Made by a program: the position numbers and the translations under genes
Part shown: positions 4,590 to 61,315 of the stretch, piece after piece
How positions within the stretch are numbered: position 1 is the stretch's first letter
Layout: each line of letters starts with the position of its first letter
Assembly (NCBI GenBank): GCA_030062745.1
Contig: CP099844.1
Coordinates: forward strand, 26,970,596-27,034,595
Length of the DNA stretch: 64,000 nt
Reading direction: 5' to 3'
Source of the DNA: Capitulum mitella
Taxonomy: Eukaryota; Arthropoda; Thecostraca; Pollicipedomorpha; Pollicipedidae
Notes under the pieces: generated by a model
What the model saw: the letters and a program-made list of their open reading frames with translations, nothing else
Database searches by the model: none
Told to the model about the DNA's origin: nothing

Positions 4590-5110
4590 TACTAGCACCC
4601 CACCAGTAGACTGGTCCGCTTTTCAAAAGAAGTTGAAAAGTTTATCGGCTGAAACAATTTCTGGTGGCACGGAACATAAAAATGGAAATCCCGAAGCGTC
4701 AGGTCTCTGTCTCGTAAATCCGAGCGGCGTATTAGGTCAAATTTGAGGTCAAAAATGAGCTTTGACTTCTAAGTGTCCAAATCACCGCAGTTTCTGTGGA
4801 TTGCTGTGAGTGGGAAAGTCCTACTTTGTAGGTATTTTTAGCATAGATGTTGCAAAAAGCGCCAGTTCTATCAAAAAAGCAAAAAATGTCACTTTGGTTG
4901 AAAGCACGTGTATTAAGTGACGGTTTGTTTACATGCATGATCTCGAAACTGGCTAATAGCACGGAATATTGAAAGAAAAGCAGATTCTCCTAGGGTGGAT
5001 GTGAGATACGTATGTCTGTAGACTGATATGGAAATTCAAAATGTTATTGAGAAACGGCTGCATACTATCATATGACGGTCAAAAAGGCATTGACCGGTCA
5101 TTGACACATT
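4590..5110 (-). repeat. Dispersed repeat, copy A (inverted relative to 7645-8165)
   Basis: The reverse complement of this segment matches 7645-8165 over most of its length. Shared blocks include GATCATGCATGTAAA, TGATAGAACTGG, CACTGCGGTGATTTGGA and a CCTTTGACCTAAATGCGCCGCT-like stretch, with mismatches and small gaps between them. It has no coding capacity. It could be one end of a single 3.6-kb element with long inverted ends, or one of two independent copies of a non-coding element in opposite orientation. Confidence 0.75.
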
Positions 5111-7644: not shown

Positions 7645-8165
7645 TCATTGACCTTGACAAGTTCAATGGTTTGATAAAGGTTGGAGTTTTGGCCGTCATA
7701 TGGCAGTACCCATCCATTTCCGTAATGTATCACACAGCCGATAGAATCACACAGAATACAGAATCGGCCGATAAAAATGTCTCATATTCACCCTCAAAAA
7801 ATCTTCCGTGTTTCGCTCAGTATTTAGTGCTATTAGCCCATTTGGGGATCATGCATGTAAATAAGTGGCATTTTTACGTTCGTTTGATAGAACTGGTACG
7901 TTTTCTGAACATCTCTGTAAAAATATCTGCAAAGTAAGATTTTCACTCTCACGGCAGTCCTTCGACACTGCGGTGATTTGGAGACTTCAACGCCAAGAGC
8001 CATTTCTGAACTCACCTTTGACCTAAATGCGCCGCTTGAATTTACAAGAGGGACCTGCCGCTTTGGTATGCTCAGTGCTCACCAGACACTGCTTGAGCCA
8101 TTAAACTTTTCAAACTTTTTTTCAAAAAAACGGGCCGATCTACCCCACCAGGCGGTAGTATGACC
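7645..8165 (+). repeat. Dispersed repeat, copy B (inverted relative to 4590-5110)
   Basis: Partner of the copy at 4590-5110, read in the opposite direction. Similarity is patchy but runs collinearly for about 500 bp, from a TCATTGACC block to a run of T before CTACCCCACCAG. Weaker similarity may continue to about 8235. Divergence is clear by eye, so the copies are not recent. Confidence 0.75.
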
Positions 8166-21800: not shown

Positions 21801-24800
21801 ATGTTTACTTCATCCGTCACAGGCTGCCTGTCTCCTATCAAGGACTGATTTGACCTTCTTCTTTCACCTGGACTCCTTGTCAAACCGGTCTCGCCTTTCG
21901 AGGCACCCCCGCCACCACCAGCACTCGCCGGGAACCCCCTCTATGCACGCCTGCAGGGACTCGTCCGTTGCTATCCATCACCGCAGCGGCCATCCATCAC
22001 TGCCTCCCACCCAGCGGACCCGTCCATTACTGCCCGCCACCTCAACGGCCCGGTGATTTCAGGGCGAGAACGGAGAGGACGGCGCGCCGGGCCCGGCCGG
22101 GGCCCAGGGGCCCCCGGGGCCGCGCGGTCTGCCCGGCATGCCCGGCATGCCCGGACCGAAGGGGCACCGGGGCTTCGCCGGCGTGGACGGCGCCAAAGGA
22201 GAGATCGGACTGCCCGGCGAGAAGGGCGCCATCGGGCCGGCCGGCCGGCCCGGCGAGCCCGGCCCGATGGTGGGTGCCGCGGCCGCCGGTGCTGCCATCT
22301 GGCCACGGCTGCGCGGCAGCTCGGAGAAGCGTGTCGCGTTCTGCTGTGTCGTGATTGCCGTCAGCTGCTGACGCCAAGCTCATTTCGGGCATCGGCCTTA
22401 TTAGATGCTGGTCGTCTCGTTTCTAAACCAGTTTCCTTTGTGTCATGACGCTAAAGCAGCACTTTTAATTGTGCAAGTTGATAAGCGGAGATCTTCATTT
22501 CTGTTCGGAATAAGTTGGTGTGCTAACGGAGCAGTGACGCCACCCACTGACAGCACTCCTCCCGGCACTGCAGGGTGTGGCTGGTCCTCGTGGCGAACGG
22601 GGCAGGGATGGTCCGCCCGGCCCGCCTGGTCTCCGAGGTATCGACGGCATAGCCGGACCACCGGGTCCACCGGTCAGTACCCATCCCGCCGTCATCTCTT
22701 CCTCGAGATGCTCCCACTGTCCCACAGCGTGAACAGTGCCCGACCTCTGACGGCCTCTCAGACTGCTCATCTGATCTTATTGCTAGGTTATCATTATCAT
22801 TTATCGTGATTTATGCTTGTTATATCTAGTTTAGCTTAGCTATGCATAGTAAAGTTAGCGATGGCCACATAGCGTGGCGTTGTAACTACCTGATTATCAT
22901 TTATTATTATCATTTACACAATATTCTCCTACTGTCAGAATAAGCTGACTTATCGCATCCAGCATGAGTTGCTTTCGACATCTAGCAGCACTGAGTCCCT
23001 CTGAGTGCAGGTGAAGTGCCTCTCCCCGCCACCCGCCGGTCGGCGGTTGATAACCACTGCCCCTGCCGCCGCCGATAGGGAGCGGCCGGGAAGTCCGGAC
23101 CGCCCGGCTTCCCGGGAAGCTCCGGCGCCAAGGGAGACCGCGGAGCCGAGGGCCCCAAGGGCAGCATCGGCCTGCAGGGGCCGCGCGGTGAGTGTCGGGA
23201 GGGCAGGGGGTGTCCTGTCCACCCGCCGACGACCGCAGCGGAGTGTCCTGACTTTCCGGCGGTTTGCTGAGACGTTGGGTGCTGTGTGGAGGATGTTCAA
23301 GAGGGAAATTTCAAAGGCCATGCGTGCGAAGACGTAAGATACCAAGTGTTCTTTGGACGGAGCTCACAGTGTCAGCTCTTTGTCGTGCCCCAGACGTGTG
23401 GTTGGCGTTGCTGCGCGCCCGGACGGCCAGTCGGCTGCGTGCGCTCTGATTGGCATCCCCTGACCGCCACCAGGCGAGGCCGGCCAGCCGGGTCTTCCCG
23501 GTGAGCAGGGCCCCATCGGACGCCCGGGCAAGGACGGCGCTGACGGCGAGAAAGGCAGCTTCGGCGCGCCCGGCCCGATGGGAGCGCCTGGCTTCCCCGG
23601 ACCGCGCGGCCCGCCCGGCAACGCCGGCAGTCCCGGCCTGCCCGGACAGAAGGGGGAGCAGGTGAGTCCAGCTCGGGCAGGAGGGGAAATAGGAGAAACG
23701 GTTCGTGACAGAGGAGGGAACAGAACCTGGTCTAGTTGGAACGGGAGACCACAGACTTCTATTCTGATCTTAATGTTCAGCGATGCACGAACAGTCCAGG
23801 CAGATACTTCACAAGTGTTTGGTTCTTTCGGTGCCCGCGAAGTGATTTGCCTGCTTTGTTTGCCCTGATATCCCCGTGAAGCAGAGTCCCTTGCCCAAAT
23901 TTCGTCCCTGCAGTGACGATACTGACCGTCCCCTGTCCGCTGCAGGGTCTGACCGGCACGCGCGGTCTGAAGGGCTCGCCGGGAGCCAAGGGCGACTCGG
24001 GCGAGGCGGGCGCTCGCGGGGCGCCCGGTCCTCCGGGCGCCGCCGGGCGGCGAGGCCGGCGCGGCCTGCGCGGTCCGCCGGGCCTGCTCGGCCCGCAGGG
24101 TGAGCGCGGCCCGCCGGGCACGCGCGGCCTGCCCGGCGCCGACGGCCCGCCCGGCATGAAGGGCGCAATCGGAGACCGCGGCCAGCCGGGCCGCATGGGC
24201 CAGAAGGGCGCCACAGGAGACACCGGCCGGCCTGGCCCGCCCGGCCTCGTCGTGAGTAAAGCCTCGTGGCCTGTCTGCGGCGCCGTGTGGTTCCTGGGCG
24301 GGGACGGGTGGTCGTACGTGCTGTTACTTGGACTGTCGCGATATGTCGTCTGTGTCTCTGTCGTTAACGTCGTCGGCTGTCTTTGCTGAGATGTCGAGAT
24401 TTCCGCCGTCTCATGCGGTGTCGTGTTCCCGATTAATGAACGTGCAGTCACGCACAGTCATCCAGTCTCACCACAGTGCTTCTTCCCGCCCAGAGCGAGT
24501 AGCCTCCTGAACCTGTCTCCACCAGTGCGCCAGCTGACCGGTCGCGGCGCTCGGCGCGTCTCCGCAGGGCGAACGGGGCATGCAGGGACGCACCGGCAGC
24601 CCGGGCCGACCCGGCCGCACCGGCGACCGCGGCCTGCCCGGCGCCGACGGCAAGCCAGGAGAGATGGGCGCCACCGGGCCGCCCGGTCTGCCCGGACCAG
24701 TCGGCCCCATCGGAGCCCAGGGCCGCCCGGTGAGAGCGCGCGTCCGCCGACGTCGTTCGGTCCACGCGTGAAGTGGAAACGGGCGCTCGCTTCTGGCAAA

Positions 24801-27800
24801 CACGCCGCTGATGCCACGGGCCAAAAATCTACCGCCATTTTCAATTTTGCCTGGTGTTTGCGTGTTTTACTTTCAGTGGCGTATTCGATGTGTTTCAGTC
24901 GAATCTGAGTAGGCCAGCAAATGGAAAATACCTGCTGTACATTCCCGTCAAGGTGCATAAGGCGCCGAAGAGCCGCCTGAAGCTGGGCAGGGGGCGCGAG
25001 TGGCACGCCTGAGCTGTGTTCTGCTCCGTCCCGACCCCGACACTGCGTGCCGCAGGGCGAGCCCGGCAAGGACGGCAAGCCCGGCGACGCTGGCCCGCCG
25101 GGGCCGCGCGGCGACGCCGGACGGGACGGACCCATGGGCCCCATCGGACCGCCGGGACCGCCCGGCTCGGCCGGGGCGCGCGGTCCGGTCGGCCAGACCG
25201 GCGCCAGAGGTTTCCAGGTCAGCCGACACTGCTGCTGGTGATAGCTGATAGCAACTGATTTGAAGGCTGATGCCGGCAGCCTCGCTGGAAGTGTCTGCAA
25301 CTGGACGACGACCAGGAATCTTACGTCACTGTTTGGAGCCTGTAATCTCCTTGGGAGTCTGGCCGCTTGTGTCAATAGCTTTAAAACTGCGCCATTCGTG
25401 CTGGTGCCTTCGTGTTGCGTCTTCTGTCGTTTTTCCTGCGTGCCGACTTGGGCACCTGAGAAAACAGATGTTTTTGTCAGAGCGTTTCATACCATGACCT
25501 CCGTGCGGCCTACTGCTGTTGCGTGGTTACCCGGACAGGGACCGGGCTGACCATAGCTAACGTTGCCCCGGCCCCTCGCCGCTCAGGGACCACCAGGCAC
25601 GCCTGGCAGCCCGGGCAACCCCGGCAAGGACGGCGAGCCGGGCCTGCAGGGTCCCACAGGCCCCCCGGGCGAGAGCGGACCTAGAGGATCGCGAGGCTTC
25701 AGAGGTAAAGCCCCACCCAGTCCGGATCCGACATTCTGCAGCGCTGGCTCCTGGAAATGGATCCTGAGATTGAAAGCAGATTTGAGACCTGAAAGCAACT
25801 CCTTTGGGACGAACATGGAGGGGTATTTTACGGGTTGTTTTACCGGTAAAATGCCGGCAAAAATACACATGAGTGCATGCCTGAGATGTGATCCTTCCTC
25901 TCATTCACCCACCATCTGGTCGGTTCGGTAATTCGGTGCTGCCATCTATTTCTAGGCGAACGTGGCGCCATGGGTCCGCCCGGAGAGGCGGGCGCCCGGG
26001 GAGAACAGGGCGCCGTCGGACCAGACGGCCCGCCCGGACCACCCGGACCTGCCGGAGCCAAGGGGCACCGGGGAGGACCAGGACTTGTGGTCAGTGTCAC
26101 CGCTGGCGCCGCGGTCACGGGCCTGGGGTCGGGAACGCGTTCGCGGCCACTTCTTGGGCGCTTTCGTGTGTTTTCGCAGAAATTAGCGTCCTGTTCAGTA
26201 TCCGTAGACATCGGACTTAATTTTGCGCATCACACGTCGCAAATTGAGACCAAGAAACGACTTTTGGCGACGATTTCACTTGCAAGTATAGCGCCGAACA
26301 GCCGCTGCGTAATTTCAATTTTCTTATTTTAGGACTCGCACAAACGGTTTTGCTACAGATAACTTCTTCCTTTATTTGTTTTATGTTGCAACGTCGCACC
26401 CGGAAGCTGACAGGTGTAAGATCTTTCTCCCGCCAAAACGGCTGTGATTCTGACGCCCTGCACCGCTGCCTGCAGGGCTTGCCTGGAAAAATGGGCCGCA
26501 CCGGGCCGCCGGGACCGAAGGGCGAGGCCGGCTCGCAAGGCAAGATCGGACCGGAGGGTCCGGCCGGCCGGCCCGGCCCACAGGGCATCCAGGGCGAAAT
26601 GGGCCCCGCGGGTCCTCCAGGACAGATGGGCGAGCGCGGAGAGACCGGAGCGCCCGGCCCGCCCGGCGAGCTCGGCAAGCCGGGTCTGATGGGCGCGCGC
26701 GGCCCGCCCGGCCCGCAGGGCCTGCGCGGCTTCCCCGGACAGCAGGGCATCACCGGTTCCACCGGACCCAAGGGCCAGCAGGGCCTGCCCGGACAGAAGG
26801 GCTCGCAGGGCAGCCCGGGAGCCGAGGGTGAGTCGGCCACGACGTGAGCGACATGTGGCTTAGTTGATGCTGGAAATGTGTTGCCAACACGGAGAGTTGT
26901 CCGTGACTGAGACTGCCTGGACCCAGTTGGAGGCTGCTGTTTTGTTCTCGTGACTGACCGCTGCGGCTGGTTGTGCACAGGGAAGCCTGGCAAGCCCGGT
27001 CCGCCCGGCCCGCTCGGTCTGACCGGCGCCAAGGGCTCGCGCGGCGACCCCGGCCCGGTGGGCCCGCCCGGCGCGTCGGGCGCGCCCGGCCGGCCCGGCG
27101 AGCAGGGGCCGCAGGGCCTGCAGGGCGCCACCGGCCAGCCGGGCTTGGCCGGCCTGCCCGGCCTCAAGGGCGCCCGTGGCGACCGCGGCCAGCCGGGCCA
27201 GCGGGGCTCCGCCGGCAACCCGGGCAGGCCGGGCCCGGAGGGCATCAAGGGCAGCGCGGGCGCGCCGGGCCTGCCGGGCCTGATTGGACCGGTCGGCCCG
27301 CCCGGAGCGGCCGGCGAACGGGGCCTGCCCGGACTGCCCGGCGGACCCGGAACCAAGGGACCACAGGGACCGCGCGGATCACCGGTAATGGGCGGCCGCA
27401 CGTGCCCGAGCGTTACAGACTTGTTTGCCCGGACGCGGGCTGATGAATGCTGACTGTCTTGGGCCGCTGTTACTCATGAGTGTCTTTAGTGAGCATTAGC
27501 AGTGATTGCTCTTAATGATGTTCACTTTGCCGTGATATTGCGACACCTTAAGCGTCTACCTTTGCTCTCGTCCGTTTGAGGCGGCTGTCGGAGCATTTGC
27601 TGTTATCTGTGAGTCTGGCCAGGAGCTGGAGGCCTGGACAGGAACTGACGACTCGTCCCGCCCTCAGGGAGAGCCTGGCGAGCCGGGACAGCGCGGCCTG
27701 GAGGGCCCCAGCGGCCAGCCGGGCCTGCGCGGGCCGCCCGGGAACCCGGGCCCTGCCGGCGAGCAGGGTCCCACCGGGCCCGAGGGCAAGATGGGCCCGC

Positions 27801-30800
27801 CCGGCATCAGCGGCCGGCCTGGCGACAAGGGCCCGCCGGGAGACGTCGGTCCGCCGGGTCTGGCCGGTCCTCCGGGCCTGCAGGTCAGCGGCGACGCGGT
27901 GCCGGGCCGGCCGCCGCCGCGCGCTGTCCTCGCCGACCCGCTCTGACCGTGGCAGGGGACGGTGTCTGGTGAACGTAATGACGCCGATCGTGTCAACTCG
28001 GCGGTGATAGTGGTGAAGTGTTGATTGATTGAAATTCCTAGGTCGCAAGTCACGTCATGCTGAGTTTATTAGTTATCAGGGGTGCTTCTCACTCCCTGGC
28101 TGAAGTCGGGGGTGCTTCATTGTAGTGGTTATTTGCTTATTATTTTGCAGGTCAAAAATGTAATAAGCCCACTTTATGGATTACCTGTCTCGCCGCATGA
28201 GCCGGTGCCGATTTTTGTGTGCATCTTGCTTGTGACGGCTGTTCCAGATCACAACACGTTACGGCAGCCAGCTGTCGACGGCAGCGCCTCAGCGACAACA
28301 GCCGGATGACGTTGCCATGACGACCGCTAACAGAGCGCGCCTGTCCTCAGGGAATGCCGGGACCCGTCGGCCCCTCCGGTCCCACCGGAGAGAGGGGCGA
28401 ACGCGGAGAGCCGGGAGTGCAGGGCGTCGAGGGGCCGACCGGCGAGAGGGGCAAGCAGGGTCCGCCCGGCCTGCAGGGCCCCAGGGGCGAGCGCGGCGTG
28501 GAGGGCCCCAAAGGCGGCAAGGGCCACAGAGGACTGCTCGGTCTACAGGGCCTGCCCGGACCGGCGGTGAGCACAGTCCGGCCGCGTCCGCAGGCGCAGC
28601 AGAATTCCCCACAGAATTCTGCCCCGTCAGAATCGTACTCCGGTCTCAAAAACGTGCAGCTTCCGTGGACACCTTAGACGCTTATCGTTCCTGAATCATG
28701 ATCGAGAAGTGATATATATATGCATATATATACACCAGACGATGATAACATTACCCATCAGTTTTGATTGAATTACACTGAGTGGGTTAACCCTATAACT
28801 GGATAAAATTAACATAAAATGCACGCATATTTTCATTGTGACTGGGCTCTAGTATTAAAACAAACACCCCTTTTGATTTTCTCAAGAGCCAAAACTATTT
28901 TCCGCATTCTGCTTATTCTTCAGTGAGGTCAATGCACCTGATCCGTCGTTTGCCTAACGTGCACGGTCTCTCCGCCTTCCAGGGTCCCACTGGCGAGAAG
29001 GGCCCACCTGGCTCCCCGGGCACGCCCGGACCCCCTGGCGAGCCCGGCATGAAGGGCCCGGCCGGCATGGACGGCCTGCCGGGGCCGCAGGGCCTGGAGG
29101 GGCCGCCGGGTCCCCGCGGACCGTCGGGAGACACGGGCCGGCCCGGCCAGGCCGGCGCGCCGGGCCCGGCGGGCCCACCCGGGCCGCCCGGCGAGTCGGT
29201 CGGCTTCGACATGGCTGCCCTGCAGGCGTTCATGCAGCCGCAGCCTAAGGTGAGACTGGCGCCATGACCAGTGCCTCGTCCTCCCGGGCGAGTGGACCGT
29301 AAGCAAGGACGCTTTTTCGGAACACAGGACCTACAATTTTTTATGCCCGCAGAGTTCTGATGTGGGGAACTCCGTCGTAACTTGATCATGATACGAACAG
29401 ATATGCCGATGTCAATAGCGATGTCAATTTTGGCGTTCAAATCGAGAGCATAGGTCATGGCTCAGCGGTAAAGGTAGAGGCGGCGGCTGACTTCTCGCCA
29501 ACCCGCGTCAAACCCACCGACGATGCGACCGCCGCGGGCCGACCACCCCTTTCTCTCCCCCCCAGGGACCGGACCCACTCAACAGCGACGAGCCGGCCCG
29601 CTTCGGCAAGGACCTGACGGACGACGAGCGCAAGGAGATCGTGATGATGGCGTACAAGCAGCTGCAGCAGCGGTTCAAGACGTTGGTCAAGCCAGACGGC
29701 ACGGCCGATGCCCCGGCCAAGACCTGCCGAGACCTGGCCGTCGCCTACCCGGACAAGGAGAACGGTGAGGCCGGTCAACGCCGGCCGAAACCCGGCGCGG
29801 ACACGGAGGCGGCGAAATCGTGATTCGTCGGAGGGAAAAACGTGGCCGCATCCGAGCTCCGTCCGCTGTCAGTGGTGTTCGCAGGCGTGCCACATGATTT
29901 GCATAAGACGAAAAAAGGCACCTGCGGGCAGAGAGGAGGATGGACAGTGGTCGAATTTTATTGTTGTAATGGGAGGCATCAGGACCATATTTAGGCACTG
30001 AGCATGATACTAGTAGGCCTATCGTGCAAACATGACAAACATGATGATGATGCTTGCCAAACACTTATCCCACTGAGGAAGCCGTAGCGGGTTGTGCCGA
30101 AATATTTTGGTTTTTATAACATCAGAACCCTTCACAATTCGCGTTTACACCGAAAAATTCATTGGTCAGCAACCGGGTAAAAATGCCATTACAGACCCAT
30201 ATGAATTTGCCTGTTTCGTTCTCCCGCTAGTCTTGCGCCTGCTGTTTCATCCGGCCCCCGGAAACCAGAGTCATTTGTCTTTTCATACTACGACATTCAT
30301 TAGCATTTGCCGTATCCAGTCTATGTACGAAGAGTCCCTCGGCGTGCTCCACCCACGTTCCGCTTGACACTGACTTGTTTGCGCGCCGCGGGTAGAAAGC
30401 GTTAACTCTTCTCACCCGCTCGCAGGAAACTACTGGATCGATCCGAACGAGAGCGACAAGAAGGACGCGATCCTGGTGTACTGCGACCTGGGCCGGCGCA
30501 TGAGCTGCCTGAACCCGGAGCCGGCCGTGTCGCCCGAGCTGAGCACCTCCAAGCGCAGCCGCGAGCACCAGTGGTTCTCGGAGGACATCGAGGGCGGATA
30601 CGAGGTCAGCAGGCGGCGCCGGCCGGCCCGTGGCCGCAGGGCAGCGGCCACGGGCCGGGGAAGAGCTCAGCTGGGCTTGCTGCAGCGCGGGAACGCTCAG
30701 AGGATTTGCCCGTCGGCGATGATTTTAATATTTTTTTCCGTCCTTGACCTACAAACCAAGCCTGTTGATCCGCTCGGTAATCGTTGGGCATGGAATGCAA

Positions 30801-33800
30801 CGGCGAGATCGTACATTTCCAGCTGAGACGAGAACTTACCTTCTCAGTATTTTCGTTTTTCGTTGCCATCTTGCCAGCGCACTCGATTTCAGGCGTTCCG
30901 GAAGCGGCCGGCTGATTTCTCCTCTGTTCGCAGTTCGCGTACAAGGCGGACGCGAACCAGATCGGATTCCTGCAGCTGCTCTCCACGCGCGCCGAGCAGA
31001 ACGTCACCTACCACTGCCGGAACCACGTGGCCGTGTACAACCTGCAGCGCCAGACGTACCGCGGCAGTCTCCGCCTGATGAGCTGGAACGACCAGGAGAT
31101 CTTCGCCCGCGGCCGCAACCGATACGAAGTGCTTTCGGACGGCTGCCAGGTGAGCGGCCGCCGATCAGCTGGGCACGGTCGGGGTCGACAGTCGGACTGT
31201 CAGGATCAGTTGAAGTCAGTCGAGGTCAGTGGATTTCGGCTGGAGTCAGAAGGGGTCAGCGGTCGGCCAGTCGGGGTCATTTTGGGTCAGCAGTAGGTCG
31301 TTCGGGGTCAGTTGGGGTCAGCCGGGACCAACTGTGGTCAGTCGGGGTCAGCCGCCGGACAGCTAGGGACTGTTCGGGGTCAGCAGTCGGTCAGTCTGGG
31401 TCGACTGGGGTCAACAGTTGGTCAGTCGTGGTCAGTTGAGGTAAACCGATCGATTAATCAGGGTTAACTGAGGTCAGCCTGTTGGTGCGGGGTGGGGGGA
31501 GGGCAGCCGAATCACGATTTTTTGCCGCCTCTTTTGGACATGACGGGTGAGCTTTACCATGTTGCTGGTCCCAACCACTGTAATGACCCATTCAAACAGC
31601 CGTAGTACATCTGCAGCCTGTCAGGGACGTATGCAAGGCTCTTAAAAAAAAAAACAAACGATGAAGACACCAGTTCACTACCTTCTCGCGCTGAGTACGG
31701 TGGGTGTTGGCCGCCCCCTGGTAAAAAGTCGGACCTCTATGGCGACCGAGACGAAGATAAAGAGCTAAGCATCCTCTATTCCGAAAGGCTGTAACGGAAT
31801 AACTCTGACCCGTCTCTGCGTCGGCCATACCGACAGCGCACACAAATTTCGACCGAGCAGATATCCTCACGTGTGAGAGGCGTTGGAACTTATTAAGTGT
31901 GAGGCATATGTTTGTCGACTGCTCTCTGCTCAGCTCAGAAGCACAGAGATTCTTTGGACGCTCCGCGACTCCGGCATCGTTTACAGGGGAATTTCCTGAC
32001 ATTGAAGTTTGTGTCACAACGCAGTTTTTAGCTGCGATTGGACTGAACGTCATTAATTCTCCCCAATAGGCGCCTACTACCATGTAAATGAACTTCTTGA
32101 TTAGATAGTCCATGTAACCATCGCAAAATGGCCGCGATAGCCGAGGCGCTGTATAAAACCCAATCATCATCACCTCTATGGCGGCTATCGACGGCTCGGT
32201 TCATGGTCTCGGTGTCCCTGCTGTTCGCGCCTCGCCGGTCGTTAGCGCTGCAGTCGGCAGGTCGCGCCGACCAGGGGCTCTGCTGGCACAGCGGGCGCCA
32301 TTATTCTGCGGACGGACCGGCGGGAGTTGCACCACCGCGCCGGCCCTGGGGTGCGGTAAATCATGCCCCCTCTGGGCCCGGGTGAAGGCCGAACGGCCCG
32401 GCGTTTGTCATGGAAGGACCGCCATCTGTTTACGTGCTGGTCCGCTCCTTTGTTCTGTGGCGAAGAGATGCCAACGGCAGTCGGGTTTCCTGAAACTGGC
32501 ATGACCCGATTCGCTTGACTTATCTGTTTTCGTCAGCGGCACGGCTGCTCACGTCTTTTTGGACTGTCAAAGCATGACACTGGTCGGCTGTTCCCTTCCC
32601 GTCCTTGTAGCGGAGATATGGAACGATGCCATCGATACCATACTTCGCAGAGGAATCACAGGTCTGCTTTGCTCCCACGAACTCGTCGCCGTGTGACGGA
32701 TGAACGCGGACCGTCCGCCCGTCCGCGCGCCGCCCGCGCCGCCCTCGCCGCCCGGCGCCGCCGTAACTCACGCGCCCGCTATCGGAAGATCGGGTCGTGC
32801 GGCGCCGATCAGCCGTTCGCGGGGCGGCCGGCGGGGATGGTTATCGCCGCTGACGTCTCTGTCCGCCGACGGAGGCGACGTCGAACGGTCCGCCGCGCCG
32901 GCACCGGGCGCGGGCCGAGCGCCGGGCTGCCCTTGCGTCACGTGCGCCGCCCCGCCCCCGCCGCCGCCGCCGCCGCCGCCGGCCGCTCGGGCCGTGTCGT
33001 AATGTTTGTAGTGGCCACGGACGGCGCTGCATGCGCGCGGTCGTGGCGACAATTGGCCACGCCGCGATGTCCTCACGGCGCGCGACGGCCGTAGGTATCC
33101 TCACGGCGCACTGCTGACAGAGATGTCCTTATGGCACACGACGGGCAGAGACGTCCTCACGACATACGGCGGACAGAGACGTCCTCATGGCACACGACGG
33201 GCAGAGATGTCCTCACGGCGCACTGCTGACAGAGATGTCCTCACGGCACGCGACGGGCAGAGATGTCCCCACGGCATACGGCGGACAGAGACGTCCTCAT
33301 GGCACACGACGGGCAGAGATGTCCTCACGGCGCACTGCTGACAGAGATGTCCTCACGGCACGCGACGGGCAGAGATGTCCCCACGGCATACGGCGGACAG
33401 AGACGTCCTCATGGCACACGACGGGCAGAGATGTCCTCACGGCATACGGCGGACAGAGATGTCCTCACGGCACACGACAGGCAGAGATGTCCTCACGGCG
33501 CACTGCTGACAGAGATGTCCTCACGGCACGCGACGGGCAGAGATGTCCTCACGGCATACGGCGGACAGAGATGTCCTCACGGCACACGACAGGCAGAGAT
33601 GTCCTCACGGCATACGGCGGACAGAGATGTCCTCACGGCGCACTGCTGACAGAGATGTCCTCACGGCACACGACGGGCAGAGACGTCCTCACGGCATACG
33701 GCGGACAGAGATATCCTCATGGCACACGACGGGCAGAGATGTCCTCACGGCATACGGCGGGCAGAGATGTCCTCACGGCACACGGCGGGCAGGGATGTCC

Positions 33801-36800
33801 TCACGGCACATGGCTTACACAGATGTCCTCAGTCACGGCTGGCAGTGACATTCTCGATGCGCGGTTGGCATAAACATTCTCGGTGCGCGCGTTCGAGTCA
33901 CGCTGAGACGACCTCCTGTCAGTGTGCGGCGGTTACCCAGGATGTGGAGCCGGCAGCCGGCAGACCTCCAGAGGACGCTGAGAAGCTGAGGGTTTGTACA
34001 GTTCCGCCTTCTCGCTCCAGTTTTTCAGATCTTGCTCTGCCACGCCGCTGCAGGCGACAAATATATGAGACCAGAACAGCAGTCGGAAAGCAAGACAGAA
34101 GCAGTAGCGGAAGACATTGAGCCAGACCTGTGTCGCGTACATAACACCATTGTTATGGAAAATTAAACATGATCGGGACCCGTCACTCCTCATAATGTAT
34201 CCTTCTGGAGATCTGTCCTTTCACTGGGTGCTCGGACTTCTGGCAAGTACGGTGTTGGCCCCCGTTGATGCATTTTAATATGTCGACACTGAAAGAATGC
34301 TTAACAGCATTGTTATTTATGGAGGCGTAGAAATTCCGACACAATGAGTCTTCTTAACAAATTCGGACGGCACGCCGCTGAACTGGACACAAAACCTCTT
34401 GCGGCGATATCGGAGACTGCGGGGTGTTGCGTCTCCTCTCTCGTTGGCCGTTCCCAGCGTCCCTCTCGGACGGAACAACATTGCACCACCGGGGGATGGC
34501 ACGGAGGCATTCAAGGGCCGGTCGTGCGGCAACCGCGCGCCAGCTTGCGCTTTCTCGACAGGACCTGTCACAGTGGCCGGCGCAGCGGGCCCTCGACGCA
34601 TGCTAATGGCCCGTGCAGGCTGGGATCGAGACCGGGCGACCGCCGCTGGCCTGCGAAGTCGGCCGAACGACGAAGCAACGCGCCGGCGGCGCGTGGCACG
34701 GTTGACAGGGGTCGTCTGTAATGGCCGATGGTCCATGCAGACCGGCCACGACCGTAGACATGAACGATAGCAGTGGAAGGGGCGGTGTAAGGAGCTATCT
34801 AGCCTGAAAGATATGACGTTAACGCTATGGCATCGCATGGAAAAAGACCATTATCGATTTGCTTTCCTCGAACACCCACTGAAAGATGTCACATCCGCTG
34901 GCCACTGTTTAAATGCGAAGGGTCAAGCTTGGCTATAGGGATAAGCCGTGAATCCACCACGCAATAAAAAAGCGAATAAAAACCTTGGCCGCGTATTCAC
35001 GAGGCCGATCAGGACCGTGAAAGTTCTGTCGAGACGTTATTTAACAAGCCTGATGTGGCTGTGGTCCGGTCCAAGGAGTGTCGTTAAGCCGTGATCATCA
35101 CGTGACGCACTCGCTTCGCAATGTTCTGTTCTATTGCCAGCACATCTCCGCACGCCAACGCCGGAAGAGCTGCCTCAGTCGCTGAGGACGGCCCCTGCGG
35201 GCATATTCCAACGTGCCGGCGATCGACCGCACAACGAGAAACGGCTGGAGAACGTGCCAGACCGTGCCGCTGATTGCCGGTAACATCATCCGTCTTCTGA
35301 ACTGTCAGAGAGCGCAAATTAGGGACCGAAAGCCAACGTTAACAAATCTATTTTCCATGAGCCGCTGCCGCCGTGTCGCGGAGCCGGACAGAGGTGCGAC
35401 CCTGGCCGGAGTTGGGATGCAGGTCCGGGCGCGACAGGCCGTCATATTGGGCCATCGCTCATTCGTCGGCCGCCGGTAATGGAGGGACTGCGTCTCACTA
35501 CATCACTACCTGTCTGACCCCCGCCGTCGGCCTGGCTCGGGGCCTCTCATCACGTCCCCCCGGCACCGGCGACTTGCCCCATCGACAGAGGGTCGGTCCC
35601 GTCCTCGGTCGAGCCGCCCGAACACTGCCTCCCCCCCCCCCGTGGAGCCCGTCCTGCCGCGGGGGACCGGGCGAAGGTCGGTCCGAGACCGTCAGAGAAG
35701 CGTCTTCAGTTCGTCACCCGGGACGGCTCGACGGGACTCGTCTGCTCTGCAGAGCGGTCGCTGCGGCGGGCGAGCTGTCGCAGCTCGCCCCATTCCCTGG
35801 TGCCGAGCGAGCCCGGTTCAAGGCGTTCACAGCCACCGGCCGCCAGCGGTGACCGCGAGGGCTACGGGACGTGCGAGCAGAAGGTCTCTGGTCGTCTTGG
35901 ATCATCTCTTGCTGTTCCTGGCCGACTCCGACCATCTGACCGTCCCTGGCAGTCCGGCCGTCTCTGACATCTTTGACCGCCTCTGGTCGTCTCTGGTCTG
36001 GTCTGGTCTGGTCTGGTCTGGTCTCTGGTCATCTCTGACCGTCTCTGATAGTTTCTTGATCGTCTCTAACCGTCTCTGACCGTCTCTGACGGTCTCTTGG
36101 TCATTTCTGACCGTCTCTGGTAGTCCCTTGATCATCCCTGACCGTCTCTGACGGTCTCCTGATAATCTCCGGCCGTTTCTGGCTGTCTCTTTCTGCAGTC
36201 GGTCGTCTCTGGCCCGATCGCCGTCTCTCTGTCTCTTGGGCTCCGCGAAGTTACAGACTAGCTGTGGTCAGTCATGTTGCGGCTGATGCTATCAGAAAAT
36301 GAATACACTCAGTCAACTTCGGGATAGGTGGCGAGACAAAACTTAGATCCAAGGCCATGTCTTGTCACTAAAGCGGTCTTCGAAGTCTGTTTACCTAAAA
36401 ATGCGACAAAAATCACTATTTTTGTGAAATCGATGGATAATAATGCGAGAGGCATTGTTCGGAGCTCAACAGCTAACACCGGGAAGTGGTGTGTTATCTT
36501 GGAAGCGCGGTGCTTTTACGTTTCAGAGGAGAGTTTGGAGGCTGGGGCGCCCGGGAAATGCCGATCGCCCCCTCACCATCACGGCTTACAGATCCAGTCG
36601 TGCTTCCACAATCATTAGTGCTGAGTGTGTATGAATGATATCGTTAGCCACGTAAGCGGCACAGCAGTGAGAAACCGCCAAAGCAACCAGCACCATCTGT
36701 TCGCTTAATGTACATACCATTGATTAATGGCGCGAGTCTTGGTCTTTATCACCGTACAAGAGGGTATGCCTCCTTACAGCAGAGGGGTTATTGAAAACAC

Positions 36801-50580: not shown

Positions 50581-51234
50581 CGTCGCACCCTTAGCGGCAC
50601 GCTAAACTTTCTCCACAAAATCAGCTGTACCAGGAATCAGGTACCAGGAATAAAGTACCAGGGTTCGGAGTCTATGTAACAGACTCTGCTTAGCATGGCC
50701 ACCGATCCATAACATCACCCTAACTAACCAATCGGACCAAATTTATGAAAAAATGAAATAAACAAAAAGTGCAGTATTGTTTTCGTCACTGAGAACTGAA
50801 AGCCGTCCAGTTTGAAAGGAAATCTGCCCAGTCAGCACAAGCGTCTTTCTGTTAGATTTTGACTACCGCTACAATGGTACGACTGTGACACCAGCGGCGT
50901 GGGGTAATACTAATATAAATGAAAGGAAATATTAATGCCTAATCATGTCATTGTATGCCATTAAAACGTGGCTGAGAGTGGCTGGCAGCGCCCACTCAGT
51001 GCCCGCGCCAAACCCTACAACGGAATCATTGTACGGCCAAACCCAGCAGCAGCAAATTGTGTTCATTGGCTCATATCCTTTCGGCTCAGCTGTGCTGTGA
51101 TTCCGTGAGCCCTGTCGTTAATCTTCCCACATTAGCCGCTGCGCCACCAGCAATTACCGTTCCCACCAGCCGGCATCCGCGCCGCGGCATATCATCCCGC
51201 CGCTCACAGCCCATTCACTTTCGTTCCAGACGCC

Positions 51235-51450
51235 ATGGCTAAGGCTCTATTCGCCACACTGAGCGCCGTGCTCGTTGCCATGGCGACCGCCCGCATGGCG
51301 TATCAGCTGTCGGACGGCGCACAGGACATCGTGCCTAACCTGGTCGAGTCGTTCAGCTGTGACGGCAGGCCTTACGGCTACTACGCCGACGTCCCCAACG
51401 GCTGCAAGCTCTTCCACATCTGCGTGCCGGTGCTTGGGTCGTCAGGGGAG
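51235..51450 (+). CDS. CPAP1-like exon 1
   Basis: 72 codons: signal peptide and the first half of the CBM14 domain through CVPVLGSSGE. The frame runs on past the donor to 51660, but the peptide after GTGAGG loses all family resemblance, while the next exon restores it. Confidence 0.88.
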
Positions 51451-52969
51451 GTGAGGCCAAACGTGGTAAGGTGTCCAGGACAACATCACGTTCAGACGCA
51501 TCAATCGGAGACTGAGGTACGGATATTGCATCGGCAAGGGAACATCCGAATCGTATGGCGTAACGTATGGATGGCTGCTGTGAAGAGATATACTGGCGAA
51601 TCAAACGCATTGCACTTTGTGATGTGCACGACGTACAAATACGGTGTTGTAGACGACTGAGCGCGTAAAAACATGCGTCCAGTTCCGCGCGTTAAACACG
51701 TGTGCTTTCTTTCCGGTAATCGCGTCTAATGGTACGTCTTAATAACGTAAACAGCCGCGAGATACGGGCACAGTTCTTCTCCAAACGCCTAATGACACTC
51801 GCGCGCCACATCAAAGTATAATCCGACCCTCCTGAATTAAATCACTGCCCACTAACCAAGGCCGCGTAAAACGCGCGACTCTCCGCCGCATCAGCATAAC
51901 ATGACCGAGCCCACGGGGCGTCCGGCGGGCGGGGGGGGGGGGCCGGTACTGACGGCGGGGGCGCGAGGGGGCGACGGGGACACAACAGCCCGGGGCCCTC
52001 CAATGGCGCGGCCCGCGCGCCGCTGCGGCGCCGGCCGGCGGGGTCAGGGGTCAGCCGGCCGATCGCCGGGCCGCCGGCCGTCCTACATCAGCCGCCTTGC
52101 GACACGGCGGGCCTAATAGGCGGACGCGGACGGGCCGGCCCGGCGGGAGGATGCGCCTCCTGCTGCGTGAGGCAACACTCGACCGGCGGTCAGGCGCCGC
52201 CACCGGCCCGGCTGTCGGCGCCGTTGAGAAACGCCTCGGCCGGCGAGATGCAAATGTGCGTGGAGGAGCAGTCTGGACGACGGCGGCCGTCGGGCACGGG
52301 GACTACGATAGCGGTCACGTGACGCACCGTGGGGACCGTGACTGCCGCATGGTCCTTAGACAGACCGCCGCTGTCCGGCATGCCACTGCCTTGCAGTCTG
52401 TAAATGCCTCACGCCGGAACGGCTCCTGCATTCAGATTGGATGAGTTGTGATGTCTGTCACGCGCTATTTGCAGATAACGTGCTAAGCTTTATGAATTGA
52501 AATTGCATGGTAATGTTTTCACGGCACATTTTAGGACAAATGGTTGTCTTCCGGAGACGGGAAAAGTATCGTGCACTACGTTCGGTGCGTAGAAGACGAA
52601 TACATCGTTGGCCAATAATTATTATGTTGGTATCTGTTGAGCATTTCTGACAGTGCAAATCGAAATGCTTGGAACAGATCTTCCGCAAATTTTCCCACGA
52701 TACATTAGCACCGGTCATAGGTTATTAGACCCATTTAAACCGAAGTGTAGTGCGATATGATTACACTGCGCGTGCAGTTCACACATTCTGTTTCGCAGAC
52801 GCTGCAGACGGACCAGTACAGCTTCCTGTGCGGCAACGAGACAATATTCGACCAGATGACCTTGACCTGCAACTACCCGGTGGACGCCCTGCCCTGCGAG
52901 GACGCCGAGAACATGTACTCGCTCCGAAACGACGAGTTCTTCAAGCTGGCGGACGGCAGCAGTGCATAG
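51235..52969 (+). CDS. CPAP1-like secreted chitin-binding protein (one CBM14 domain), two coding exons
   Basis: Small secreted cuticle or peritrophic protein of 128 residues, joined from 51235-51450 and 52799-52969. The signal peptide is MAKALFATLSAVLVAMATA. The single peritrophin-A (CBM14) domain has six cysteines in the right order: FSC, NGC, HIC in exon 1 and FLC, LTC, LPC in exon 2, with the DGRPYGYYADVPNGCKLFHIC core typical of CPAP1 and obstructor-like proteins. Such proteins bind chitin in cuticle. The domain is split by one phase-0 intron (donor GTGAGG, acceptor TTTCGCAG). A short acidic tail (EDAENMYSLRNDEFF) ends at TAG. The ATG has good context (ACGCCATGG). A few untranslated upstream exons may exist. 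CPAP1 subfamily not assigned. Confidence 0.9.
51451..52798 (+). other. CPAP1-like intron with GC-rich block
   Basis: 1.35 kb phase-0 intron. Bases 51900-52330 are very GC- and CpG-rich, including a G run near 51932-51942, and could be a regulatory island or a GC-rich repeat. Nothing coding is recognised. Confidence 0.75.
52799..52969 (+). CDS. CPAP1-like exon 2
   Basis: 57 codons including TAG. Supplies the last three cysteines of the CBM14 domain (SFLCGNETIFDQ, LTCNY, LPCED) and the acidic tail. Confidence 0.9.
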   Translation, partial: TLQTDQYSFLCGNETIFDQMTLTCNYPVDALPCEDAENMYSLRNDEFFKLADGSSA

Positions 52970-55057: not shown

Positions 55058-55066
55058 GCCGACAGG
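55058..55066 (+). repeat. Left 9-bp target-site duplication (GCCGACAGG)
   Basis: Identical to 61146-61154 on the same strand and directly abutting the terminal inverted repeat. Confidence 0.93.
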
Positions 55067-55246
55067 ATGTGTGTCAAGACAGCCCACGGTCAGCCCACGC
55101 TCAGCCCACGCTCAGCCCATAAAAGCGACCCCTCCAAAAGCGGCCAAAATGCACCATATGATGCATCTCGACGAGCTGAACACGATGGTGCAATTTAATG
55201 TTGGGTGCATCCAATACCTTAGCCTGCAGAGCCAATTATCAATCAA
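55067..55246 (+). repeat. Left unique terminal inverted repeat
   Basis: About 180 bp matching the reverse complement of 60963-61145 with very few differences. Contains tandem CAGCCCACGGT/CAGCCCACGCT units next to the terminus, then an AAAAGCGACCCCTCCAAAAG stretch. Confidence 0.92.
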
Positions 55247-56549
55247 GGGGTGAGAGTTTCTCACTAATATTCACAGCCGACTGCATATAGTCGAGTAGCA
55301 CCTCAAACGACTCCCCGTGTCAAGCCGAGCTCAAAACTACCTCTTGTTTCTCAATATCTTTTCAACTTTTTGAGAAACATGCATCCAGAACCGGTTTTTC
55401 GCCTAATGCTTTATTTCCCATAGGCTTTAACATTGAGGGCAACGGTCGTGAATTGGCCGGCATCTACGATTTTTCTAATTTTTTGTGTATGGGTACCCTG
55501 ACCAGGAACACACTGCCTGGCAGTGAAATTTGCCGGGTGCATTGATATTCTCACCGATTACAAGGGGTGAGAATTTCTCACTAAAATTCACAACCGACTG
55601 CATATAGTCGAGTAGCATCTCAAACGACTCCCCGTGTCAAGCCGAGCTCAAAACTACCTCTTGTTTATCAATATCTTTTCAACTTTTTGAGAAACATGCA
55701 TCCAGAACCGGTTTTTCACCTAATGCTTTATTTCCCATAGGCTTTAACATTGAGGGCAACGGTCGTGAATTGGCCGGCACCTACGATTTTTCTAATTTTT
55801 TGTGTATGGGTACCCTGACCAGGAACACACTGCCTGGCAGTGAAATTTGCCGGGTGCATTGATATTCTCACCGATTACAAGGGGTGAGAATTTCTCACCG
55901 AAATTCACAACCGACTGCATATAGTCGAGTAGCATCTCAAACGACTCCCGTGTCAAGCCGAGCTCAAAACTACCTCTTGTTTATCAATATCTTTTCAACT
56001 TTTTGAGAAACATGCATCCAGAACCGGTTTTTCACCTAATGCTTTATTTCCCATAGGCTTTAACATTGAGGGCAACGGTCGTGAATTGGCCGGCATCTAC
56101 GATTTTTCTAATTTTTTGTGTATGGGTACCCTGACCAGGAACACACTGCCTGGAAGTGAAATTTGCCGGGTGCATTGATATTCTCACCGATTACAAGGGG
56201 TGAGAATTTCTCACCGAAATTCACAACCGACTGCATATAGTCGAGTAGCATCTCAAACGACTCCCCGTGTCAAGCCGAGCTCAAAACTACCTCTTGTTTC
56301 TCAATATCTTTTCAACTTTTTGAGAAACATGCATCCAGAACCGGTTTTTCACCTAATGCTTTATTTCCCATAGGCTTTAACATTGAGGGCAACGGTCGTG
56401 AATTGGCCGGCACCTACGATTTTTCTAATTTTTTGTGTATGGGTACCCTGACCAGGAACACACTGCCTGGCAGTGAAATTTGCCGGGTGCATTGATATTC
56501 TCACCGATTACAAGGGGTGAGAATTTCTCACTAAAATTCACAACCGACG
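55247..56549 (+). repeat. Left array of 317-bp subrepeats
   Basis: Four full units beginning GGGGTGAGAATTTCTCAC at 55247, 55564, 55881 and 56197, and a fifth from 56514 cut off after 36 bases by the central LINE. Spacing is 317, 317, 316 and 317. Each unit contains ACCGGTTTTTC, an AATGCTTTATTTCCC stretch and a GGGTACCCTGACC block. The outermost unit shares private variants with the outermost unit of the right arm. Confidence 0.95.
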
Positions 56550-59330
56550 CCCATTCCGTGCTTTTGACGTCAGGAGTCGCATGGAGAACCTGATAGCCTT
56601 CAAGAAGGGGAGAGCTTTAGCTCGGCGCACGATAAGGGAAGCGAAACGTATTTCCTGGCGTGCGTAGGTAACACGCTCAACCGATTTATGCCAACTTCGC
56701 AGATCTGGGCGCGTAACAAGTGTGTTTCTGGCCAGTTTTCATCCGTGCCGCTTCCTGTGCTACGTTTGGACGGCCAGACTGTGACGCAGCCATTGGATGT
56801 GGCTAACGAGATTGCACAAGCCTTGTCACACCGTAGCAAAGGTGGTAACACGAACCCACAGTTCTTACGGCACAGAGCACGATGTGAGCAAACAGTGATA
56901 GATTTTTCCACGAGTGAATCGCAGGCATACAATGAGCCATTCACTTTGATGGAGTTGGAATCGGCAATTGTCAAGCTTCGCAATGTGTCAGAAGGCCCTG
57001 ATACCATACGCAACGACATGCTCAGACATCTGCCGCCCTGCATACTTCGCGTGCTTTTGGTGGATTTTAACTCATTGTGGTTAAGAGATGAATTCCCAGC
57101 TGTTTGGCGAGAAGCTGTGATAGTTCCACTTCTGAAACCAGGCAAAAGTGGATTAGATCCTCTTCACTACAGACCCATTTCTCTTACGTCATCACTTTGT
57201 AAACTGATGGAAAAGATGGTGAACGCACGATTGACCTTTTTTTGAACAGCATCACGTTTTTACTAACGCGCAGTGCGGTTTTAGAAAGAACCGGACACAG
57301 TGGACCATCTTATAGCTCTAGACACTGTGATTCGTACCGGTTTTAAAGCGATCAGGCATATAGGCACAGTCTTCTTTGACACTGAGGGCGCCTACGACGC
57401 CACTTGGTTTCATGGTATTCTTGTAAAGCTGTTTAGATATGGTAAACGTGGTCGTATGAGTACTTTTCTTCGACTCTTTTTAGCTGACCGTTTTTTCCGT
57501 GTCCGTGTTGGAAACACACTCTCCGAAAAGTTCTCACAAATAAACGTTGTACCCCAAGGCGGTGTGTTAAGTGCAGCGTTATTCGCAGTTATGATAAACG
57601 ACATCGGTGATGTGCTCCCCCAGTCTGTTGGCCGTGCTCTTTTTGTTGATGTTTTTACCATTTGGACGAGTGCAGTAAGAGCACCATCAATGGAACGGCA
57701 TCTCCAGCTGGCTGTGGACCGCGTGGAGAGGTGGAGCACCATGAATGGGTTCAGTTTTTCAAAAAATAAGACCGTAGCCATGCATCTTCTTCGTCGCTGG
57801 AGATACGGTGAAATGACTCTCCTTTTGTATGGACAGAGCATTCCAACAGAGTCTGTGGCCAGATATCTCGGGGTATATTTTGACCGCCGCCTTACGTATA
57901 ATGCACATCTGGAAACTTTAAGCGATCGCTGTTTTAAGTCTCTGAACATATTAAAATGTGTGTCACGCACAATGCTGTGATATCGTTCTCTCGTCCGCTC
58001 CAAGCTGGATGATGCATGTTTTGTGTATGACAGCGCATGTGATCCAGCAAGTGCATTCTAGACACCATCCATCACACCGCTCTCCGCATCATCACAGGGG
58101 CCTTCCGCACATCACCCACTGTTAGCCTTATGGCAGAGTCACACGAGTCGCCACTGTCGACGAGGAGGAAAATGCTCGGCATGCGCTATCCCCTGAAGCT
58201 GCGACAATTCCCGTTACACCCGACGTATGACGCAGGTTTTTCACGGTCCACTGTGAGCTTCCTTCGCGGTGGATCGCAGCAGCGCACTCCGCCTTTCGGC
58301 TTCCGAATGCGAGCTCTGTTGCAGGAGTGCGAAATTCCTCTTCGAGGGGTGAAGCGAATAAGCCATCTGCCTTCTCCTCCCTGGCATTTGACGTCACCTT
58401 CAATAAACACCTTGCTTGCAGAAATTAGAAAGAATGAAGCCATGCCAAATATAATGGGATCCAGGGCGCTGGAGCGCATGGCGTCATATGGCGGATACAC
58501 ACTGACGTACATGGACGGATCTGAGACCGCCGGTGGTGTTCGTTGTGCGTTTGTGTGCGGTTCTGTCACCCGATCGTTCTCGTTGCCTGCACACGCGTCT
58601 GTTTTTACATCGGAATTGATAGCAATCACCAAGGCGTTATGTTTCATCGAAGTTGGTGACGAATCACTATACCTGATTTTAACGGATTCCCTTAGAAGCC
58701 TTTTTGCTCTTAGATCTTTGTATTCAGCATGTTTCCTTCTAGAGGACATTTTACTACGTCTGACACAACTGGATCGGACTGGGAATAAAATCATCCTGTG
58801 CTGGATACCCAGTCACGTCGGAATTACGGACAACGAGTTGACCGATGCCGCTGCCAGGCGAGCAGCGCTGACACTATGTACACGTTCTCTGCCAATCTTG
58901 CCAGAGACTTTTATCCGGCAATTAGGAACTTCCTGTACAACAAGTGGCAGCGCTCTTGGGATGAGACAGATGGCAATAAACTCACAATGGTAAAACCCAA
59001 GCCTGGTTCATGGTTATCCTGCTCTCGCAAGGCGAGACGAGAGGAAATAATACTGTGCAAACTGCGTATCGGTCACTTATACGACCCATGGCTATCTGTT
59101 GCTTAGGGCTGGTAGGCCTCTCTGCCATCGATGTGGTGCCTTCCTCACTGTCAACCACGTGGTCCTTTCGTGTCCATACTTGGCTGAAAAACGTTGACTT
59201 CACTTCGGACAGCACGCTTCGTCTCTGACGCTCTGCGATGTACTTGGAGACAACTCACGCTTTCTTGAATCGAAACAGCTCTTTCTATTTCTTAAAGACG
59301 CTGACTTCGATGTTTTTTACACACTTCACT
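56550..59330 (+). mobile_element. I-clade LINE fragment (reverse transcriptase, RNase H, knuckle), decayed
   Basis: 5'-truncated non-LTR retrotransposon lacking ORF1 and the endonuclease. Reverse transcriptase blocks run from about 56690 to 57980: DPLHYRPISLTSSLCKLMEK, DTEGAYDATW and QGGVLSAALFAVMIND. The catalytic YxDD box reads FVDV, having lost its second Asp. RNase H follows at 58490-58880 with all four acidic residues in place (YMDGS, SELIAI, LTDSL, ITDNELTD). The C-terminus has IILCKLRIGH and a zinc knuckle (PLCHRCGAFLTVNH...C) ending near FLKDADFDVFY. Frameshifts lie near 57240 (at a T run), 57298, 58050 and 58990, with a stop at 57978. RNase H plus this layout points to the I clade. 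It starts exactly where the left subrepeat array is cut. Confidence 0.88.
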
Positions 59331-59706
59331 AGTGAGGCAAAGCAACCTCGTTATAAGCGCACACTAACCTCAGAAGTCGGCGCGCCCGAAAACACCGATA
59401 AACAACAACAAGCAGCGAAACAACTGGCTCTACATCATGCGTGTTGTGCTGTATGCATCACTTTGTTTCACATTGAACGTTGAGAACGGCTGATAAAAAT
59501 CTAAATATCACCAGTAATGGTACCGATGCCCTACAGGATTTTGACCAACGATTTTGCGCTATAGAACCCTGTCCCAATAGTCGTTCTAAAGGGATGATAT
59601 TATCGCGAGCATTTGATCCCTGTGAGATTGTAATTCCTCGTTTCAGGTGTATAAAGATGCAATTGTTTTCCAGATAAATATACGTATGTTTTCGAGCCAG
59701 TATTTC
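59331..59706. other. Core of foldback element after the LINE
   Basis: AT-rich sequence between the LINE coding end and the first recognisable right-hand subrepeat. Probably LINE 3' UTR plus old foldback sequence; the LINE 3' end cannot be placed by eye. Confidence 0.5.
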
Positions 59707-60010
59707 AGGTGATGAGAATTAACCGAAACACACGTTTTTCTTTGATAAATCGGACAAGTAGTCGCCTATATAACAAAAAGAGGCACATCCTAGGAGTCAG
59801 ACAAATCACGCGCGATGCCCCCACAACAAGGGGACACATGCCTAACAAACCCTACAGGAAATACACCATTACGTGGAAAAAAACAAATAGATATGCATGT
59901 TACACAAAACTCGAGAAAATAGAAATTAACTAAAGATAGTTTTGAGCTGAACATCACACGGAGAGTTTGACAGCGTTTACAGCGATCAGAGTTTTCGGGA
60001 GAAACTCCCA
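59707..60010 (-). repeat. Ancient, strongly diverged 317-bp subrepeat
   Basis: Aligns end to end with the right-hand units but with many substitutions: CCATTACGTGGAAAAAA against GCATTAGGTGAAAAACC, and GATAGTTTTGAGCTGAACA against GGTAGTTTTGAGCTCGGCT. It is much older than its neighbours. Confidence 0.8.
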
Positions 60011-60962
60011 CCCCTTGTAATTAATGAGAATGTCAATGCACCCGGCAAATTTCACTGCCAGGCAGTGTGTTCCTGGTCAGGGTACCCATACACGAAAAAT
60101 AAGAAAAATCGTAGGTGCCGGCCAATTCACGACCGTTGCCCTCAACGTTAAAGCCTATGGGAAATAAAGCATTAGGTGAAAAACCGGTTCTGGATGCATG
60201 TTTCTCAAAAAGTTGAAAAGATATTGATAAACAAGAGGTAGTTTTGAGCTCGGCTTGACACGGGGAGTCGTTTGAGATGCTACTCGACTATATGCAGTCG
60301 GTTGTGAATTTCGGTGAGAAATTCTCACCCCTTGTAATCGGTGAGAATATCAATGCACCCGGCAAATTTCACTGCCAGGCAGTGTGTTCCTGGTCAGGGT
60401 ACTCATACACAAAAAATTAGAAAAATCGTAGGTGCCGGCCAATTCACGACCGTTGCCATCAATGTTAAAGCCTATGGGAAATAAAGCATTAGGTGAAAAA
60501 CCGGTTCTGGATGCATGTTTCTCAAAAAGTTGAAAAGATATTGATAAACAAGAGGTAGTTTTGAGCTCGGCTTGACACGGGGAGTCGTTTGAGATGCTAC
60601 TCGACTATATGCAGTCGGTTGTGAATTTCGGTGAGAAATTCTCACCCCTTGTAATCGGTGAGAATATCAATGCACCCGGCAAATTTCACTGCCAGGCAGT
60701 GTGTTCCTGGTCAGGGTACCCATACACAAAAAATTAGAAAAATCGTAGGTGCCGGCCAATTCACGACCGTTGCCATCAATGTTAAAGCCTATGGGAAATA
60801 AAGCATTAGGTGAAAAACCGGTTCTGGATGCATGTTTCTCAAAAAGTTGAAAAGATATTGAGAAACAAGAGGTAGTTTTGAGCTCGGCTTGACACGGGGA
60901 GTCGTTTGAGGTGCTACTCGACTATATGCAGTCGGCTGTGAATATTAGTGAGAAACTCTCTC
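60011..60962 (-). repeat. Right array of 317-bp subrepeats
   Basis: Three full units in inverted orientation; the CCCCTTGTAAT marker recurs at 60011, 60328, 60645 and 60962, exactly 317 bp apart. Nearly identical to the left-arm units. Confidence 0.95.
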
Positions 60963-61145
60963 CCCTTGATTGATAATTGGCTCTGCAGGCTAAGGTATTG
61001 GATGCACCCAACATTAAATTGCACCATCGTGTTCAGCTCGTCGAGATGCATCATATGGTGCATTTTGGCCGCTTTTGGAGGGGTCGCTTTTATGGGCTGA
61101 GCGTGGGCTGAGCGTGGGCTGACCGTGGGCTGTCTTGACACACAT
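60963..61145 (-). repeat. Right unique terminal inverted repeat
   Basis: Mirror image of 55067-55246, ending GGGCTGTCTTGACACACAT. Confidence 0.92.
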
Positions 61146-61154
61146 GCCGACAGG
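61146..61154 (+). repeat. Right 9-bp target-site duplication (GCCGACAGG)
   Basis: Exact copy of 55058-55066. Confidence 0.93.
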
Positions 61155-61315
61155 GGCGTTGGAACTGGGGGAGGGGCAGGGGACAGCTGCCCCTCCCAAC
61201 TTTGGGCAACATTTAACATTAACCCTACGGCGTTGCATGGAAAGAAACGTATTGCAAAAATCACGTTTACCACTCCCCCGTCTCCACAGATGTTCCACCG
61301 CTTCTGGTTGCCGAC
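61146..61315 (-). repeat. Short dispersed repeat, shared with 10985-11130
   Basis: Inverted copy of the intron 1 repeat. It interrupts the mariner relic just after the HTH fragment, and the foldback element entered at its end. Its C-rich run reads GGGGGAGGGGCAGGGG on the plus strand. Confidence 0.75.

Follow-up and report, generated by a model that had tools for sequence, protein, structure and literature searches.

What kind of mobile element leaves two near-identical mirrored arms around a broken interior, and do such arms testify to recent movement? Both questions are raised by a 6,079-bp element at positions 55067-61145 of a 64,000-nucleotide stretch of the genome of the arthropod Capitulum mitella (contig CP099844.1, forward-strand positions 26,970,596 to 27,034,595), which we refer to as the window. 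We posit, with a probability of about 0.8, that the element is a foldback DNA transposon, non-autonomous and in all likelihood of the Mutator/Rehavkus type, that carries a dead insert of a retrotransposon lacking long terminal repeats (non-LTR). An original prediction, made from the letters alone, had proposed a foldback or Mutator-like transposon with exact inverted termini, a perfect 9-bp target duplication, and mirrored arrays of 317-bp units.

Ends, target duplication, and insertion site

The predicted ends are borne out. The termini are exact mirror images, the outer 177 bp are identical on the two sides, and a perfect 9-bp direct repeat, GCCGACAGG, abuts both ends; at the composition of the window, the chance that nine bases match at a given fixed place is ~4e-6. 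In the printed flanks outside the duplication, no complementarity is seen by eye. When the whole window was scanned for exact 16-mer inverted pairs at most 12 kb apart with abutting direct repeats of 7-11 bp, 19 pairs were returned, a single one of which, the element's own end pair, is a real candidate. The other 18 were discounted as mirror artifacts because their “direct repeats” are 8-bp palindromes within the arms (GATGCATC, GGGTACCC, AACCGGTT), for which mirror symmetry supplies a direct repeat for free. The ends of the element, its mirrored arms, and the duplication are thus confirmed, and no further copy was found elsewhere in the window (blastn, expectation value [E] up to 1).

The right flank also bears on the insertion site. 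From 61151 on it is a dispersed repeat, 61151-61307 matching 10980-11124 on the other strand at 78% over 157 columns; both copies start with CAGGGGCGT, followed by (A/T)GGAAC. The nine-base word CAGGGGCGT recurs at 19661, where the following sequence is unlike by eye. The element lies at most 5 bp from the start of the dispersed repeat, and the last four bases of the duplication are the first four of the repeat, an overlap in keeping with a duplication that arose when the element inserted. The copy at 10980-11124 does not amount to a complete empty site, because its alignment stops short of the left flank.

Architecture of the arms

Positions 55067-55949 and 60263-61145 are 99% complementary across 883 nt. 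From the outside in, each arm consists of 13 bp, 3.6 copies of an 11-bp motif, ~120 bp, and an array of 317-bp units, and the element as a whole is laid out as follows.

55058-55066, no strand: left copy of the target duplication, GCCGACAGG, a perfect 9-bp direct repeat
55067-55243, plus strand: left outer arm, 177 bp, beginning ATGTGTGTC; 0/177 differences from the right outer arm
55080-55119, plus strand: 11-bp motif CAGCCCACGCT, directly repeated 3.6 times close to the left end
55244-56548, plus strand: left array, units L1-L4 (317, 317, 316, and 317 bp) followed by 38 bp that begin a fifth unit
56549 to ~59332, plus strand: decayed, 5′-truncated retroelement fragment, read as non-LTR, with reverse transcriptase and RNase H, split into at least six open segments; 3′ end approximate
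59333-59769, no strand: spacer with no domain match above the curated cut-off, which would take in any 3′ tail of the retroelement
59770-60017 (approximate), minus strand: innermost right unit, highly diverged (70-72% alike within a core of 61 nt)
60018-60968, minus strand: right array, units R3 (60018-60334), R2 (60335-60651), and R1 (60652-60968)
60969-61145, minus strand: right outer arm, 177 bp, in which 61093-61132 holds the 11-bp repeats in mirrored form
61146-61154, no strand: right copy of the target duplication, GCCGACAGG, a perfect 9-bp direct repeat

Tandem Repeats Finder counts 4.1 unit copies in the left array and 3.1 in the right. The arrays of 317-bp units are therefore present as predicted, but that description was incomplete, as the right array also holds a highly diverged fourth unit (local score 55.5, against a maximum of 15.5 among 60 shuffles). 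A continuation of an inner diverged unit was sought beside the start of the retroelement, and none above chance was found. We also considered whether the 317-bp unit derives from the outer arm, as has been proposed for the Drosophila virilis foldback element Tetris; this idea is unsupported here, the observed score being reached by 33 of 200 shuffles in the forward orientation and, marginally, by 1 of 200 in the reverse.

Exchange among the units

Near-identical arms invite the conclusion that the insertion is recent; the distribution of differences within them undermines that inference. Compared in register, the two arms differ at 0/177 positions in the outer part and at 4/317, 4/317, and 9/316 in units 1-3, for a total of 17 mismatches and one gap against 1,110 identities (~1,128 positions). 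At four of nine informative sites a variant is common to L1 and R1 alone, and these four shared variants, absent from the other units, show that the arms hold register at their outer edge. Of the 36 pairs that the nine sites form, 16 fail the four-gamete test, so that no single tree accommodates them, a pattern indicative of exchange among units both inside an arm and across the two arms. R3 carries seven private variants, against none or one in each of the other six units; together with the diverged unit next to it, R3 presents what decay at the inner edge of a homogenized array would look like.

We therefore rejected an insertion date based on the near-identity of the arms, whose sites conflict as they would under unit exchange. 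Conversion after insertion may make the arms alike, and nine bases can come through moderate divergence unchanged, so neither the perfect duplication nor the near-identity is proof of recent movement. The further claim, that an intact and mobile copy points to an active transposase elsewhere in the genome, does not follow either: exchange between arms can account for their identity, a 9-bp repeat can persist through moderate decay, and the retroelement inside is broken.

A broken retroelement in the interior

The original prediction made no mention of the retroelement fragment, which takes up 2,784 of the 3,469 bp between the left array and R3. Among 53 stop-to-stop frames of at least 40 amino acids that overlap 56400-60100, only RVT_1 (E 1.5e-14, within 57285-57977) and RNase_H (E 5.1e-6, within 58043-58990) pass the curated Pfam cut-offs. 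Upstream of the reverse transcriptase lies a stretch that we take to be the linker of a non-LTR polyprotein, and downstream of RNase H a C-terminal tail was judged by eye; from the domain order and familiar motifs, the interior may be read as the second half of such a polyprotein. The only matches to solved structures are weak (two 1,114-residue sequences named “Reverse transcriptase-like protein,” E 0.17-0.18), and a comparison of the reverse transcriptase piece with viral contigs gave three pattern matches, none of which was confirmed. The frame changes between at least six open segments. Active reverse transcriptases have a double aspartate in the catalytic box; here the box reads FVDV, and we take the retroelement to be dead. 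It joins the left array at unit position 38, and a possible AAC-rich tail was noted, by eye only, near 59400.

The prediction that the element has no transposase of its own held for recognizable domains: in the 53 interior frames, the Pfam scan returned neither a MULE-type (Mutator-like element) DDE transposase nor a PHD-finger transposase of the Rehavkus type. An NCBIfam scan of four interior pieces gave nothing close to the cut-off. Pfam matches from the 53 frames that fell below their cut-offs were dismissed as chance, among them TAF8_C (E 0.013), Gag_MA (E 0.023), AGRB_N (E 0.032), RNA_pol_Rpb2_3 (E 0.083), and, antisense to the retroelement, the zinc-finger-protein C terminus ZSWIM1-3_C (E 0.14). 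Exact probes of 23-24 bases found no match to the unit or the outer arm in viral contigs, nor to the unit in bacterial and archaeal genomes, a result that is uninformative about the host.

Relatives and classification

The foldback character of the element, as predicted, is supported by its composite tandem-repeat arms and 9-bp duplication: this one copy has long inverted arms built of tandem subrepeats and a target duplication at its ends. The superfamily is less certain. Nine base pairs fall within the MULE range of about 8-11 bp, a size that is not exclusive to MULEs and is here measured on one copy, and Mutator membership, which is probable, rests on that one duplication and the shape of the arms.

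Relatives were compared by architecture alone, from descriptions in the literature. Drosophila FB and FB-NOF elements likewise combine 9-bp duplications with tandem-repeat arms, but FB repeats measure 10-31 bp. Very close in plan is Tetris, which has an outer domain, ~220-bp tandem units, an inner domain, and a variable middle, with 8-10 bp duplications, no conserved open reading frame, and no autonomous partner found; its unit number varies, for which unequal crossing-over was proposed (PMC4079207). In the present element, by contrast, the unit measures 317 bp, the outer domain 177 bp (Tetris reaches 866 bp), and the middle holds a retroelement fragment. Tm1, a Mutator/Foldback element of root-knot nematodes, has 8-10 bp duplications in 45 of 53 elements, most commonly 9 bp, and resembles our element in its composite arms with a variable number of tandem repeats, in members without a transposase, and in one copy with a nested element; unlike our element, whose ends are symmetric, it has ~14-bp repeats and asymmetric 7-bp end motifs (PMC3169594).

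Rehavkus elements, reported from arthropods and annelids, make 9-bp duplications, encode a transposase with a PHD finger, and bear a minisatellite ahead of the 3′ inverted repeat; their inverted repeats are listed as 26-400 bp (PMC6446971). The 9-bp duplication and the inverted repeats are common to both, but here the arms are longer and the tandem repeats lie inside both of them rather than beside one. We do not file the element as Rehavkus, as no PHD-finger transposase was found in its interior, although a non-autonomous relative would look alike. A survey of arthropod MULEs gives inverted repeats of 13-1,193 bp and defines complete copies by their transposase (PMC13359780); the arms described here (~1.2-1.5 kb) are at or above the top of that range, and under that definition the element would probably not have been listed.

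Weighing the alternatives

Several observations weigh against the reading of a Mutator/Rehavkus-type foldback transposon with a later non-LTR insert. It rests on a single copy, and one duplication cannot separate families with 9-bp duplications from those with 8-10 bp. The absence of a transposase domain (0 of 53 frames) holds for the frames scanned, frames shorter than 40 amino acids and frames lying wholly in the outer arms having been left out. The left side has no counterpart of the diverged inner right unit, which calls for a deletion or an asymmetric history. Recurrent mutation could in part explain the conflicts among sites, and the case for the outer 177 bp being better conserved than the units is borderline, with P = 0.04 when all three unit pairs serve as reference and P = 0.11 for the outer two. 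Finally, no target duplication of the retroelement's own is recognizable: the longest word shared at its edges is 8 bp, and four shared 7-bp words were observed where, by our own expectation, about three would arise by chance.

This last point bears on whether the retroelement piece was instead captured as cargo common to many copies of the transposon, in the manner of a Pack-MULE, rather than inserted in this copy. The lack of a duplication around the piece and its abrupt junction at unit position 38 would fit capture, as would the contrast between a retroelement interrupted at several points and arms with so few differences. Truncation at the 5′ end with the 3′ coding end retained is, however, the ordinary outcome of non-LTR insertion, and the identity of the arms may stem from exchange between them and is thus no proof that the piece predates the insertion of the transposon. 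We regard capture as unlikely. Equally doubtful is a foldback element of another superfamily, be it P-type such as Galileo, hAT, or Merlin: the duplication is unambiguously 9 bp, whereas P and Galileo elements make duplications of 7-8 bp and hAT elements of 8 bp. Merlin duplications, at 8-9 bp, are compatible in size. The view, cited in the Tetris description, that the foldback form evolves independently in different lineages (PMC4079207) lends this alternative some weight, as does the assignment of Galileo to the P superfamily.

We give very little credence to an inverted segmental duplication or an assembly fold-back. Assembly errors do yield long, near-identical inverted arms, and the lengths of the arrays may be misassembled, but either origin is hard to square with exact ends that abut a 9-bp duplication, with flanks that differ between the two sides, with 17 differing sites and a gap between the arms, or with a right flank formed by a repeat whose opening four bases also close the left duplication copy.

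A proposed history

If the element is indeed a Mutator/Rehavkus-type foldback transposon with a dead insert, its history could have run as follows. A transposase made elsewhere would bind the ends, perhaps at the 11-bp repeats, and the element would be cut out and pasted with a 9-bp stagger. Its arms would then evolve in concert through conversion or unequal exchange, leaving the inner units as relics, and a non-LTR retrotransposon, truncated at its 5′ end, would land at the left array's inner edge and subsequently decay. The order of these events is our most plausible arrangement of them.

Other features of the window

An older inverted pair at 4620-5006 and 7780-8127, ~75% alike in two pieces, may be what is left of the arms of a second decayed transposon. 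At 33066-33831 lies a minisatellite with 13.7 copies of a 56-bp unit. Pieces of a fibrillar collagen gene (VWC, Collagen, and COLFI matches) extend over about 16670-30823 and include a 45-bp in-frame repeat at 17105-17403, and an open frame at 51136-51657 has a weak match to a chitin-binding peritrophin domain (CBM_14, E 8.4e-4, below the curated cut-off). By themselves, the collagen and chitin-binding matches would indicate that the DNA probably comes from an animal, perhaps an arthropod.

Implications

The tandem units in the arms of Tetris seeded satellite DNA (PMC4079207). A comparable scenario here, in which the element represents an undescribed foldback family of this lineage with the reverse transcriptase fragment as standing cargo and 317-bp units that seed satellite arrays elsewhere, strikes us as quite improbable. 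Long inverted arms are able to drive inversions, as work on Galileo indicates, and a foldback element with clean ends is useful. This is otherwise an ordinary kind of mobile element, set apart by what a single copy preserves: a snapshot of arm evolution, with the outer units paired across the arms and the inner units decaying.

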